From: Rhodopirellula sp.
GTDB lineage: Bacteria; Planctomycetota; Planctomycetia; Planctomycetales; Planctomycetaceae
Direction of reading: 5' to 3'
Length of the DNA: 37,237 nucleotides
Assembly (NCBI GenBank): GCA_013203845.1
Contig: JABMPE010000561.1
Span: forward strand, 1-37,237
Part shown: one piece after another, positions 20,044 to 24,835 of the stretch
Layout of the letters: each line of letters opens with the position of its first letter
Numbering within the stretch: the stretch's first letter is position 1
Program-made: the position numbers and the translations under genes
The notes under the pieces: model-generated
What the model saw: only the letters and a program-made list of their open reading frames with translations
The model's database searches: none
What the model was told of the DNA's origin: nothing

Positions 20044-20856
20044 TCACGATGCGGCACAAGTTGCTCTGGCGACCATCCCGGCCAGATAAGCGGCTTTGAA
20101 ACCGGCGTCGATGTTGACCACGGCGACGTTCGAGGCGCAGCTGTTGAGCATCGAAAGCAACGCTGCCACGCCGCCGAAGTTCGCTCCGTATCCGATACTT
20201 GTCGGAACGGCGAAGACAGGAACGCTCACATGCCCCGCGACTACCGACGGGAGTGCTCCTTCCATTCCAGCCACGACGACAATGGCATCTGCCTGGCGAA
20301 GCTGCTCGACTCGCCGAAGCAATCGTTGCGGCCCGGCGACACCAACATCGATGATCAGATCAACCTCGCAATTCATCCAGCGGGCGGTTTCGACGGCTTC
20401 TTCCGCGACGGGCAGGTCGCTTGTCCCGGCACTCACCACGGCGACGAGGCCACGACGTTCCTGGTTTTCTGAAGAAATTCGCAGGGTCCGGGCTGTTTCA
20501 TTAAAGAGAGCACCGGGAAATCTGTGGAGTACGGCGGCGGCCTGATACTCATCGACCAGTGTCGCCAGGCATGCCTGGCCTGCGGCGGTCAATGCCTCGA
20601 AAACCCGGACGATGGCTTCTGGAGTTTTTCCGCGTCCGTAAACGACTTCCGGAAATCCGCAGCGTTCGGCACGTCCCAGATCGACACACGCTTCGGGAGT
20701 CTGGGCGACCTCATTCAGCAATGGTTTGTCATTCTGAGAGTATTCAGAAGCGGCGTCACGAGGCGGCGCGTCGAGCAGCAATTCGACGACGTCTGCCAGC
20801 GAGGACGAGCCCCTGACAAGTTGATTGAGCACCGATGCGAGTTGTTCTCTATCCAC
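20044..20856 (-). CDS. larB: LarB, nickel-pincer cofactor biosynthesis (AIR carboxylase-like)
   Basis: LarB carboxylates and hydrolyses nicotinic acid adenine dinucleotide to pyridinium-3,5-biscarboxylic acid mononucleotide, the first step to the nickel pincer cofactor of lactate racemase and relatives. The 270-residue protein has the family's N-terminal 'VDLGRAERCGFPEVVYGRGK' block (residues about 58-77) and a C-terminal PurE-like domain with 'VAVVSAGTSDLPVAEEAVET', 'DVGVAGPQRLL', 'IVVVAGMEGALPSVVAGHV' and 'PTSIGYGANFGGVAALLSML'. The start is GTG with AGGA nine bases upstream. No larA, larC or larE lies in the window, although the remaining genes could be elsewhere. Its substrate derives from NAD metabolism, and nadC is about 5 kb away; I do not read that as a functional cluster. 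Confidence 0.92.
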   Translation of the reverse strand: MDREQLASVLNQLVRGSSSLADVVELLLDAPPRDAASEYSQNDKPLLNEVAQTPEACVDLGRAERCGFPEVVYGRGKTPEAIVRVFEALTAAGQACLATLVDEYQAAAVLHRFPGALFNETARTLRISSENQERRGLVAVVSAGTSDLPVAEEAVETARWMNCEVDLIIDVGVAGPQRLLRRVEQLRQADAIVVVAGMEGALPSVVAGHVSVPVFAVPTSIGYGANFGGVAALLSMLNSCASNVAVVNIDAGFKAAYLAGMVARATCAAS

Positions 20857-21229
20857 GGAGGCGTTTCCTGATTTTGAGCTCAGCGACTTTCGACGCGCGA
20901 CACTCGGTCGGTGTTTTCTGACAAACCGATCCGCCCTGACATCGCCGTTATGACCGCGAATTCTGCTTATCCGGAATAATCGTCACAGTCAGCTCAGACC
21001 TTTTCAATTCGCAAACCCGCAGACGTTTTTCAGCCGGTCAGAGGCGAGCAATAAGAAATACTGGGTCGAGGGCTGGATGTTCCAATCACAACGGTTCGTG
21101 CAGCAACAGTGTCTGCAACGGTATCGGATGGAGCGATTGTAGCGATGTTTTCTGTGTATCGTGGCTTCTAAGCCGGTACTGGCGATCCTCCTGGCGAGCC
21201 GGTCTGGAGCTGCAAACCCGATTCTGACC
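20857..21229. other. Upstream region of larB, no gene seen
   Basis: This is the first 373 bases of the gap between larB (minus) and the structured leader (plus). It presumably holds the larB promoter. No open frame has coding character and I see no strong hairpin or repeat. Confidence 0.4.
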
Positions 21230-21256
21230 TTGACACTGACTTAATCATTCTAAAGT
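21230..21256 (+). promoter_or_regulatory. Candidate promoter for structured leader and HTH-receiver gene
   Basis: A perfect TTGACA (21230-21235) is followed after 15 bases by TAAAGT (21251-21256), the same -10 form as the candidate rpsO promoter. The spacer is short. Transcription would begin near 21262, just before the first hairpin, giving an untranslated leader of about 575 bases. Confidence 0.4.
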
Positions 21257-21261
21257 CATCG

Positions 21262-21830
21262 CCCGGTAAGGACCGAAAGTAAGGTCAGATAGTCGGAGAC
21301 TGATCAGTCTCGTCCTGCAACTTGGAGGGAGCAGGACGGCACTGCCAGACAATGGCTATCTCGGGAGTGGCAGCAGGGAGAGCTGCTCGACAGAACATTG
21401 ATGCAATGGCGATTGGCATCCGTTTCTGTCGCCCGTCGTCAATGACGAGCGGCTGGTCAAAAGAGATAGCTCCTACGAGATATCTTCTGCGACACGTCGG
21501 TCGGAAGAGACGCCCGCAAAGCGAGTCGGTCAGGACTTCAAATCAGGAAGTCCGGGTCGAGACTTTGCGGGGCGACCCTGGAAAATGAGTTTCCTCGAAG
21601 AAGAGAAGAGAAGCGGAGAAACGAAAGTCCTCAGTTTTGTGTTGCCGACGTAAGGCAGGTGAGGAATCGGTGGGAGATACCGATGAATCACCCGGTAACT
21701 GGAGACAAACCCCGACCCAACACCACGGTGGCTCTCAGGAAGGACCCAGCGGCTTAAGAGAGCCAGCCATCGTAGGGGGGTGCAGAATTTCGCGTGAGAC
21801 CGAATGCCTGCATAGCAAAGTGAAACTGGA
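21262..21830 (+). ncRNA. Large hairpin-rich leader RNA, no known family recognised
   Basis: This stretch between a promoter-like site and the HTH-receiver gene has no coding character but many helices readable by eye. They are 21271-21274/21283-21286, palindrome 21296-21311, 21311-21318/21331-21338 (8 perfect pairs), 21342-21347/21368-21373 and 21400-21404/21416-21420. Then come 21436-21440/21444-21448, 21554-21559/21573-21578 (extended past a bulge) and 21643-21646/21654-21657. A compound arm follows: 21658-21662/21688-21692 enclosing 21666-21671/21679-21684 across an opposed GGA/GAA internal loop. Last are 21729-21736/21758-21765 (8 pairs) and 21781-21785/21808-21812. It also holds purine-rich single-stranded stretches, as in structured RNAs. 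Key sequences of RNase P, tmRNA, SRP RNA, 6S, cobalamin riboswitch and group I or II introns were looked for and not found. It could be a cis-acting leader, a separate RNA, or a decayed element. Pairing was judged by eye only. Confidence 0.45.
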
Positions 21831-21837
21831 GCCCGCG

Positions 21838-22410
21838 ATGAAGACGATCTTCACTACTGGACAGGTAGCTAAGATCTGCAAAGTTGCACCACGAACGGTC
21901 AGCAAATGGTTTGATTCGGGACGCCTTCGTGGCTACCGAATTCCTGGTTCCCAGGACCGTCGGATCCCGCGAGAGCATTTGATCCGATTCCTGAAAGAAC
22001 ACGGAATGCCACTTGGTGAACTTGAAGACGAAGCAATGGGTAAAATCCTGCTCGTCGGTGCAGAACCTGTGATCAAGTCTAGCCTGAATGAGATGATTAC
22101 GCCCGAAGACTTCAAAATCGAATACGCCCAAAGCGGATTCGAGGCTGGAATTCAGGCCGAATCGTTGCACCCTGATTGCGTTGTCGTTGACTTCGCTATG
22201 GGCCGTAACGATGCGTTGCTGATCGCTCAGAACCTTCGACGCAACCCCGAGTATTCCGAAACTGTACTGATCGGTCTGCTCAGCGACGAAGACAATGCTG
22301 CCGGTTTCGACCGGACCATCTTTAACGAAACCTTCCGCAAACCGTTCGACTCAGCTCTGCTCGCAGAACGAATTCGAACGCTTGTCGGTCGTAAGAAGCA
22401 GTTCGCCTGA
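21838..22410 (+). CDS. HTH DNA-binding protein with degenerate receiver domain
   Basis: A 190-residue protein. Residues 5-55 form a MerR/excisionase-type helix-turn-helix (TTGQVAKICKVAPRTVSKWF, then RGYRIPGSQDRRIPREHL). Residues 68-185 resemble a response-regulator receiver. D118 (VVVDFA) sits at the phosphorylation site, S149 at the Ser/Thr position, and K168 lies in FRKPF. The acidic pair that binds magnesium in ordinary receivers (VDDE) reads G74-A75-E76, so phosphorylation as usual is doubtful. The domain order, DNA-binding part first, is the reverse of most response regulators. The ATG at 21838 has GGAG seven bases upstream; the frame is open back to 21637 but that part overlaps leader hairpins. 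It stands alone between a long structured leader and further hairpins. The targets are unknown, and no histidine kinase is nearby. Confidence 0.85.
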   Translation: MKTIFTTGQVAKICKVAPRTVSKWFDSGRLRGYRIPGSQDRRIPREHLIRFLKEHGMPLGELEDEAMGKILLVGAEPVIKSSLNEMITPEDFKIEYAQSGFEAGIQAESLHPDCVVVDFAMGRNDALLIAQNLRRNPEYSETVLIGLLSDEDNAAGFDRTIFNETFRKPFDSALLAERIRTLVGRKKQFA

Positions 22411-22420
22411 TCAAAAGCAG

Positions 22421-22490
22421 GTCGGGAGTCATTCGCCAGGGGAAGCTCATGACCGACGTGGCAAGGAAGCCACACAGAACTTAGGTTCTG
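22421..22490 (+). ncRNA. Three consecutive hairpins after the HTH-receiver gene
   Basis: Directly after the stop lie three stems: 22421-22424 plus 22428-22432 pairing with 22454-22457 plus 22449-22453 (one arm with a GGA bulge), GTGGC/GCCAC at 22458-22473, and CAGAAC-TTAG-GTTCTG at 22475-22490. They are packed almost without gaps, which is unusual for a plain 3' untranslated region. They may belong to the same folded RNA as the leader, or protect the messenger's 3' end. Confidence 0.4.
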
Positions 22491-22520
22491 AAGATCAGTG
22501 CGGATATCAGAGTAATCAGT

Positions 22521-22555
22521 AAGGCCCGGTCAGAATTTCTGGCCGGGCTTTCTTT
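22521..22555 (+). terminator. Intrinsic terminator of the HTH-receiver transcript
   Basis: GCCCGG-T-CAG (22524-22533) pairs with CTG-G-CCGGGC (22539-22548), including one G-T wobble, and is followed by TTTCTTTG. The rest of the gap up to the next start (22556-22711) shows no gene; it should contain the promoter of the DUF1501 gene. Confidence 0.85.
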
Positions 22556-22711
22556 GTGCGCTGGTGGAAGTTTTTGCTGGAAGAGAACGCTGATCGAAAG
22601 AGATATTCGCAGACCGTTGCTCTTGATCGTCGGAGATTAGAAGTCAGACTGAATTGGTCCGCGACACGTTTGTGATGTAACCAGACTTCGGTCCAGGCGA
22701 GAGGGACTTCG

Positions 22712-24835
22712 GTGCTTTCGATTCTCAACAAGGGAACACGGCTTTGCGACGGGATATCACGCCGTGAATTGATGCGAGTTGGTTCGCTGACGCTTGGCGG
22801 TCTGTCGCTTCCGCAGTTGCTTGCGGCAAAAGAAATTTCGCAGCCGGCTCCCGTTTTCGACAAAGCTTTTGGCCGTGCGAAGAACGTGATCTTCCTCTAC
22901 CTGGCCGGAGGACCACCTCAGCATGAGACGTTCGATCCAAAACCGCACGCTCCGGACGGAATCCGAGGTCCGTTCAAACCAATCAGCACGAACGTCCCCG
23001 GAATTCAGTTCTGCGAACTGCTTCCTCGCACGGCAGCGATCAGCGACAAACTCGCAATCTGTCGATCGATAGCCACCGACGACAACGTCCATTCATCGAG
23101 TGGTGCATGGGTGCTGACGGGCTACAAGTATCGCGGGCCGAACGCTCGAACGATTCAAGCAACCGACTGGCCGTACTTCGGCTCCGTCGTCAAGCAATTG
23201 AAGCCTGGTGAGAAACTGCCTGCCCTCACTTCCGTCTGGCTGCCGGACATGATGCGACTCAACGAGAACGTGACACCGTCGGGACAGACCGCTGGTTTTC
23301 TCGGACCGCAGTGGAATCCGGAAGTCTTCGTGGGAGACCCCGCCGAACCCACGTACGAAATTGAAAGCCTTCGAGAGACCGACATTACTCCGGTTCAGCT
23401 TGGGCGTCGGCAATCGCTGTTGTCGCAACTCGATGATCGATTTCGACGTCTGGATGATTCGTTCAGAACGTACGACTCATTTCAGCAGCAGGCATTCGAT
23501 CTGCTGACATCCGGGCAGGCTCGACAGGCTTTTGACATCGCGCAGGAATCGGATGTCGTTCGTGATCGCTACGGTCGAAACCGTTGGGGACAAAGCGTTC
23601 TTCTGGCACGCCGACTCGTGGAAGCGGGAGTCCGACTGGTTCATGTGCAATGGCCGCGTGAACCTGGTGACAACGCCTCTGATAATCCGCTGTGGGATAC
23701 CCACGCGCAGAATGCCGACCGCGTGGAAGATGTCCTGTGTCCGATGTTTGACGTCGGCTTTTCGGCGCTGATTGAAGAACTCGATCAGCGAGGTCTGTTG
23801 GACGAAACACTGGTCGTGACGATCGGCGAATTTGGCCGCACCCCAAAGATCAACGCGAAGGGTGGTCGCGACCACTGGGGCTCGGTCTTCAGTTTCGCGA
23901 TGGCTGGAGCTGGCATCAGTGGCGGCCAGGTTTACGGATCGAGCGATAAGAACGGTGGTTTTCCGGCAAGTAACCGCGTTCAGCCGGGCGACCTCACCGC
24001 GACGATGTTTCACCTGCTGGGAGTTCCGCACCAGGGATATTTTCTGGACGCTCAGAATCGCCCGCATCGACTGACCGCTGGTGAACCGCTCTGGAAGATG
24101 CTCGGCAGCGAGCCGGCAACGACAGAACGAGTTGCGTCAACTGGGGACATTGCCCGCGTACCACCGTTTGATCCGGCGCGTTATCTCTTCCACACCGATT
24201 TCGTTGGTCGAGACCCGATCAAACCAATCACGGAACCGTCCCGCCCCAAAGGCTGGCGAGCCAGCCCGTTGTATTTGGCGAGTGGTGATAATTCTTTTGG
24301 CGCGATGGTGCTCCGGGATCTTGATCAGCAGACAGCGGCGCTCGGATTCAATCTTGCCGATGGTTCGCCGCTTGAGATCAATCAGAACTCGAAAGTTTAC
24401 CTGGCTCAGGAAGTTCGCAGCCCCTATCCCGGCTTGTACGTTTTCCGTGTTCGACTTCGAGCGGAAGCTTCCTCGCCTGAATTCTTTGCGAACGTCTTCC
24501 GACAGAACTTCACTTGCCGGCTGGCCTTTTTTCAGTTCAACGCTCAAACGAAATTCGTCAATGAATCACGGGAACTTGCTTCAACGACGTTCGAGGTGAA
24601 CCTGGTCGAGCGCGCCTCTGACGAATGGCAGACGGTCGAGCTGTCAAAGAGTTTCGTGAATCCGAATCCCGGTTCGAACTTCTCGTTCGGAGCCGGCATG
24701 GGCGTTTCCATTCAACTGATCAAATCGAGCGGTGGCACGCTGAAGATTGCCGCGAACGATCGAGCGTTCGTGCGAGTGGCCGACGTTGAGCTGGACTTCC
24801 TTGGAAAAGAAGTCAACGAAAACGTCAAAGTCTGA
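22712..24835 (+). CDS. Tat-exported DUF1501 protein with extra C-terminal module
   Basis: A 707-residue DUF1501 protein. The family is sulfatase-like in fold and abundant in planctomycetes, with no proven reaction. The N-terminus carries a Tat signal (SRRELMRVGSLTLGGLSLPQ, residues 16-35). The DUF1501 core runs to about residue 465, with 'NVIFLYLAGGPPQHETFDPK', 'RSIATDDNVHSSSGAWVLTG', 'LVVTIGEFGRTPKINAKGGR', 'DHWG' and 'GDLTATMFHLLGV'. The last 240 residues are not part of a normal DUF1501 protein. They look beta-rich ('YPGLYVFRVRLRAEA', 'NSKVYLAQEV') and could bind carbohydrate or another partner. The GTG start has GAGAGGGA just upstream. Unlike most members it has no DUF1549/DUF1553 gene beside it. 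Confidence 0.9.
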   Translation: MLSILNKGTRLCDGISRRELMRVGSLTLGGLSLPQLLAAKEISQPAPVFDKAFGRAKNVIFLYLAGGPPQHETFDPKPHAPDGIRGPFKPISTNVPGIQFCELLPRTAAISDKLAICRSIATDDNVHSSSGAWVLTGYKYRGPNARTIQATDWPYFGSVVKQLKPGEKLPALTSVWLPDMMRLNENVTPSGQTAGFLGPQWNPEVFVGDPAEPTYEIESLRETDITPVQLGRRQSLLSQLDDRFRRLDDSFRTYDSFQQQAFDLLTSGQARQAFDIAQESDVVRDRYGRNRWGQSVLLARRLVEAGVRLVHVQWPREPGDNASDNPLWDTHAQNADRVEDVLCPMFDVGFSALIEELDQRGLLDETLVVTIGEFGRTPKINAKGGRDHWGSVFSFAMAGAGISGGQVYGSSDKNGGFPASNRVQPGDLTATMFHLLGVPHQGYFLDAQNRPHRLTAGEPLWKMLGSEPATTERVASTGDIARVPPFDPARYLFHTDFVGRDPIKPITEPSRPKGWRASPLYLASGDNSFGAMVLRDLDQQTAALGFNLADGSPLEINQNSKVYLAQEVRSPYPGLYVFRVRLRAEASSPEFFANVFRQNFTCRLAFFQFNAQTKFVNESRELASTTFEVNLVERASDEWQTVELSKSFVNPNPGSNFSFGAGMGVSIQLIKSSGGTLKIAANDRAFVRVADVELDFLGKEVNENVKV

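Follow-up and report, generated by a model that had tools for sequence, protein, structure and literature searches.

In the planctomycete Rhodopirellula sp., a long stretch of DNA without genes precedes the gene of a small regulator, which raises the question of whether this stretch is read as a leader RNA and, if so, what such an RNA could do for the gene that follows. The window, that is, the whole stretch of DNA that was analysed, comprises 37,237 nucleotides and derives from a genome of 8.5 Mb assigned to the family Planctomycetaceae. The initial annotation of this DNA had proposed a large structured leader RNA that belongs to no catalogued family, and this central proposal is supported by the lack of an Rfam match, by conservation and by covariation. 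The comparison set covered the family, including Gimesia, Fuerstiella, Schlesneria and Planctomicrobium.

The gene-free stretch and the regulator gene

The stretch is bordered by a divergent gene, which starts at 20856 on the minus strand and encodes an AIRC domain (Pfam), and by the ATG at 21838, and no protein-like gene is located between them. Chance ORFs are broken by indels among the relatives, with a 5-base difference in all of them; a hidden small ORF in the leader was rejected due to these disrupted reading frames, and the earlier statement that the stretch contains no gene is thereby borne out. Positions ~20950-22550 are conserved within the genus, and both flanks drop to ~50% identity. 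The part between the divergent genes that lies 5' of the boxes described below (20950-21230) shows ~80-90% conservation within the genus; the sequence 3' of the stop codon (22410-22550) is conserved there as well. The gene itself and the end of its transcription unit are as follows:

21838..22410, plus strand: protein of 190 aa with a BldC/excisionase-type HTH and a receiver-like domain (Pfam HTH_17 and Response_reg)
22524..22555, plus strand: terminator-like hairpin with a T-rich tail, read from the sequence; a stricter terminator scan did not report it

Both Pfam domains confirm that the leader is followed by an HTH-receiver gene, as had been annotated, and a homologue is present in 57 of 59 relatives. 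In NCBIfam, the HTH is nearest to BldC and excisionase, with the BldC match remaining under its curated cut-off. Among 107 orthologues of two families, the HTH is almost invariant and the receiver always carries Asp118 and Lys168; in place of the N-terminal acidic pair usual for receivers stand Gly and Ala/Ser/Val/Thr, and one acidic residue is retained. As the phospho-acceptor Asp and the Lys are retained and the N-terminal acidic pair is lost, the protein sequences suggest an atypical receiver. The terminator-like hairpin suggests that the transcript of this unit contains a single gene.

Paired boxes and the predicted start of the RNA

Upstream of the regulator gene, two short boxes are conserved at a fixed distance from each other, followed by the putative leader:

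21251..21257, plus strand: TAAAGTC box, the 5' half of a promoter-like pair
21274..21278, plus strand: CGAAA box, second half of the pair, after a nearly constant 16-nt spacer of variable sequence
21284..21294, plus strand: 5'-terminal bases of the predicted RNA, conserved (GTCAGATAGTC; consensus across the family GTCAGACGGTT)
21285..21837, plus strand: predicted structured leader RNA as a whole

In 56 of 77 Planctomycetaceae loci, the motif YTMAAGTC lies 400-590 nt 5' of the ATG of this gene, usually followed by 16 nt, CGA and then GTCAGACGGTT. A second family of the class possesses the strict form YTAAAGTC-N16-CGA followed by ATTAGTCTTGACGGTCAGG, which is located 350-510 nt upstream in 22 of the 27 loci with enough upstream DNA. 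Since YTAAAGTC-N16-CGA is found 350-590 nt upstream in both families, the long leader is probably older than their split. The constant length and variable sequence of the spacer suggest that the pair is an alternative-sigma-type promoter or a protein site, and transcription is predicted to start, probably, a few bases 3' of the CGAAA box, near 21285. A genome-wide regulon of the TAAAGTC-N16-CGA pair was rejected, as 13 matches were found compared to 34 for a reversed control.

The initial annotation had placed the promoter at TTGACA (21230-21235) and TAAAGT (21251-21256) and the start of the RNA near 21262. These two elements are 15 nt apart, however, and a sigma-70 scan with a spacing of 16-18 nt found no promoter. 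Furthermore, TTGACA at this distance is a feature of the genus and a small number of neighbours and is absent from this place in most of the family, whereas the pair that is conserved is YTAAAGTC-N16-CGA. The TTGACA/TAAAGT promoter was thus abandoned, and the conserved boxes TAAAGTC and CGAAA move the predicted start to near 21285.

A conserved three-way junction next to the start codon

It had been argued earlier that the abundance of hairpins in this stretch points to a functional RNA. Indeed, the plus strand outperforms dinucleotide shuffles in folding energy (z = -3.7, none of 100 shuffles as good); however, the minus strand reaches an even lower value (z = -4.7), and among the relatives the mean z of the leader equals that of coding regions (-2.4). 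The hairpin-richness of the plus strand therefore stands as an observation and is weak evidence when taken alone. Folding energy was rejected as evidence for an RNA, and because the minus strand and coding regions fold equally well, it is covariation that decides.

The best-supported part of the leader is 21710-21837, which adjoins the start codon. An alignment across genera is possible for the final ~145 nt up to and including the start codon; it comprises an outer helix (CCCC/GGGG), an inner one (CGGTGG/CCATCG), the short hairpin A, hairpin B (GGCT..AGCC) and hairpin C, which adjoins the ribosome site. In the window, these elements are located as follows:

21710..21780, plus strand: three-way-junction domain
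21710-21713/21777-21780, plus strand: helix H1 of the junction
21725-21731/21767-21773, plus strand: helix H2 of the junction
21732-21744, plus strand: hairpin A of the junction, weak in the window
21751-21754/21761-21764, plus strand: hairpin B of the junction
21781..21812, plus strand: hairpin C, separating the junction from the ribosome binding site
21828..21831, plus strand: GGAG ribosome binding site in the conserved context GGAG(AG)CCCGC

The covariance model R1, built from 12 sequences of these ~145 nt, matches the window at 21710-21854. R1 matches 154 of 170 Planctomycetaceae genomes and 56 of 58 genera, almost always once per genome, and every match examined sits at the start of the HTH-receiver gene; the conservation among relatives that the earlier proposal had named as a check is thus found throughout the family. 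Outside the family, R1 yields weak matches only, which are anchored at the start-codon region and owe most of their score to it. Without the ribosome site and the start codon, the model still scores 92, 82 and 68 bits at three loci outside the model-building set and 65.5 bits in the window, and the signal therefore does not originate from the start codon. In one genome (G015), two diverged leader copies are present on contigs C70 and C117, the second of which ends at the contig end just inside the gene; they are probably due to mixed strains in the assembly.

Covarying pairs, the other check that had been named, were found in number. Across 59 aligned loci, 91.4% of the pair cells are standard pairs compared to 79.1% in shuffles, 21 of 23 pairs have changed on both sides compared to 12.2 in shuffles, and the covariation score is 0.408 compared to 0.183; all five measures beat 500 of 500 shuffles. 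When one strand is slid by a single column, the covariation score falls to ~0.1 and the signal is lost. An all-against-all test of 10,878 column pairs in 53 non-redundant sequences ranks the five pairs of hairpin C as the top five, and among the top 17 there are 10 modelled pairs; alignment A2 had been adjusted to the structure, and in a sequence-only alignment several modelled pairs rank high, but are mixed with unsupported pairs. In the genus of the window, hairpin C differs in sequence and retains its pairing. G-U pairs outnumber A-C combinations (106 vs 36), and the RNA is therefore read from the plus strand.

The 5' arms of the leader

For the remainder of the leader, seven close relatives were aligned from the boxes to the start codon. 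This alignment contains 96 predicted pairs, 14 of which are compensatory compared to 6.6 in shuffles (none of 500 shuffles reached this number). Two arms are located as follows:

21389..21430, plus strand: arm with the helix 21389-21395/21423-21430 around the conserved GATGC..GGCGATTGGCATC hairpin
21658..21692, plus strand: compound arm with an inner helix and a GGA/GAA loop

Most pairs of the helix 21389-21395/21423-21430 carry compensatory changes in a six-sequence set, and the GATGC..GGCGATTGGCATC hairpin is found again in other genera. The compound arm had been highlighted in the initial annotation for its opposed GGA/GAA internal loop. The arm itself and its inner helix, with compensatory changes at 21669-21671/21679-21681, are supported; the loop, however, is missing from the nearest outgroups, L122 and L123, and is genus-specific. 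Positions ~21440-21560 are nearly genus-specific as well, and the structure predicted for the 5' half of the leader draws on a few related sequences only.

Comparison with known RNA families

Membership in an Rfam family was defined as a score at or above the gathering threshold of that family. Neither the window nor any of 20 relatives drawn from several families matched an Rfam 15 family, and a permissive search of 20850-22720 returned sub-threshold matches only. RNase P, tmRNA, SRP, 6S and other Rfam families were thus rejected, in agreement with the earlier statement that the RNA belongs to no recognised family, and literature searches found no description of this leader. It appears to be a new family of a known kind, the structured leader RNAs, with a length and depth of conservation that are unusual for a small regulator. 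The Rhodopirellula-1 motif is listed as a possible cis-regulatory RNA of Planctomycetes, with a table entry that names Proteobacteria and Planctomycetes and gives no Rfam number (PMC2864571). Compared by this table entry only, the motif may coincide with part of the leader.

Like riboswitches and cis-regulatory leader motifs (Weinberg et al. 2010, PMC2864571), the leader possesses a conserved covarying domain directly 5' of one gene family and helices that adjoin the ribosome site. Unlike these motifs, it has no Rfam family and no known ligand, to which the downstream gene offers no clue either, serves a regulator gene rather than metabolism or transport, and is much longer, with ~350-590 nt between the boxes and the AUG. 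The autogenous leaders of the ribosomal-protein type are also structured, precede a single conserved gene and likely act on translation; here, however, the product is a DNA-binding regulator. The regulatory RNA of planctomycetes is little charted, and the leader adds a tested covariance model for RNA catalogues.

Proposed function and alternative explanations

The leader combines covarying structure with a same-strand position upstream of one gene family, as is generally expected of a structured cis-regulatory leader. Our preferred reading, which we hold with moderate confidence, is that the stretch is the 5' leader of the HTH-receiver mRNA and represents a new structured cis-acting RNA family, likely involved in the control of translation initiation or linked mRNA stability. 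Among the three functions that had been suggested, a cis-acting leader fits best because nearly every genome has one copy, located at the start of the same gene. Its action is best read as control of translation or mRNA stability, given that no terminator-like site was found in the leader and that the conserved domain reaches the ribosome site. The lack of a terminator-like site argues against attenuation; the silence of the terminator scan is weak evidence, however, since it also missed the evident hairpin at 22524-22555.

In predicted folds, the mean probability of the GGAG being unpaired is 0.48 in Planctomycetaceae and 0.27 in the second family, and it amounts to 0.61 in the window. The merely partial pairing of the site in the window counts against the preferred reading, as does the outcome of a search for a covarying alternative pairing that would hide the ribosome site, which found none. 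A conserved switch in which 21768-21777 pairs with the start region and hides the start codon was set aside: the predicted helix is restricted to the nearest relatives, shows no variation among them and does not persist in other genera. A pairing between the GUGAAGAUC segment and codons 4-7 was rejected, being only a little stronger than in shuffles (-13.6 vs -11.2 kcal/mol) and absent in the genus of the window.

According to the mechanism proposed here, transcription would begin near 21285, just 3' of the YTAAAGTC-N16-CGA boxes, and the RNA would form variable arms followed by the conserved three-way junction, consisting of the CCCC..GGGG outer helix, the inner helix and two hairpins, and then a final, separate hairpin placed directly 5' of the GGAG ribosome site and the AUG. 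The junction domain may then recognise a factor, the signal itself being postulated, and the response would act on translation initiation or on coupled mRNA stability. A leader of this kind would mean that a regulator found almost universally in the class is subject to unusually elaborate control by RNA, and the question of which signal is sensed can be directly tested in cultivated relatives such as Gimesia.

It is conceivable, though rather unlikely, that the leader instead serves as a protein-binding site, either for the encoded HTH-receiver protein in a feedback loop or for a CsrA-type translational repressor that binds GGA in the hairpin loops and at the ribosome site. Genes for CsrA are unusually numerous in Planctomycetia, with 10 matches in this genome and 2-16 in the relatives (~40 examined), the GGA trinucleotides of the leader tend to be unpaired (0.57 vs an average of 0.36), several of them in fully open loops, and the ribosome site itself is a GGAG. 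The 2-16 CsrA genes per genome together with GGA in open loops make a CsrA-type mechanism attractive, and loop GGA, a GGAG ribosome site and many CsrA genes are features shared with CsrA/Rsm-controlled leaders and RsmY-type RNAs. However, GGA is no more frequent in the leader than in shuffles (17 vs 16.6), the ANGGA core falls short of expectation (3 vs 4.3), and neither is enriched across the family, so that an enrichment of CsrA motifs was rejected; in addition, the loop of hairpin B contains no GGA in the genus of the window. The sole RsmY match is far below the threshold (19.2 bits vs 57) and lies in the 3' region at 22452-22551, where it ends in the terminator-like hairpin.

We consider it improbable that the leader gives rise to, or also serves as, a separate trans-acting RNA: its length and several domains exceed the needs of a simple switch, but it is almost always present in a single copy, every examined case lies at the start of this one gene, its structure extends to the ribosome site, and no terminator-like site was found before the gene. 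That the region is conserved DNA with regulator binding sites and no RNA function is highly improbable, since DNA sites would not be expected to show compensatory changes within nested helices or more G-U than A-C, even though the TAAAGTC-N16-CGA boxes resemble protein-recognised DNA and the region 5' of them (20950-21230) is conserved in the genus as well.

A probably related leader in a second family

An extension of the cis-acting reading, which we put forward only tentatively, is that the leader belongs to a new class of large, ancient riboregulators present in at least two families of the Planctomycetia, in which the junction senses a signal and thereby sets the translation of the near-universal BldC-like HTH-receiver regulator. 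In the second family (loci L044-L055 and L212-L241), the gene is preceded by a conserved leader of its own, whose 3' hairpins are different. A GGAGG..CCTCC hairpin occupies the position of hairpin C, accompanied by a CTCGC..GCGAG hairpin and then the GGAGTCC ribosome site; these hairpins are conserved and offer little variation for covariation testing. Both the paired upstream boxes and the GGAG site are kept in this family.
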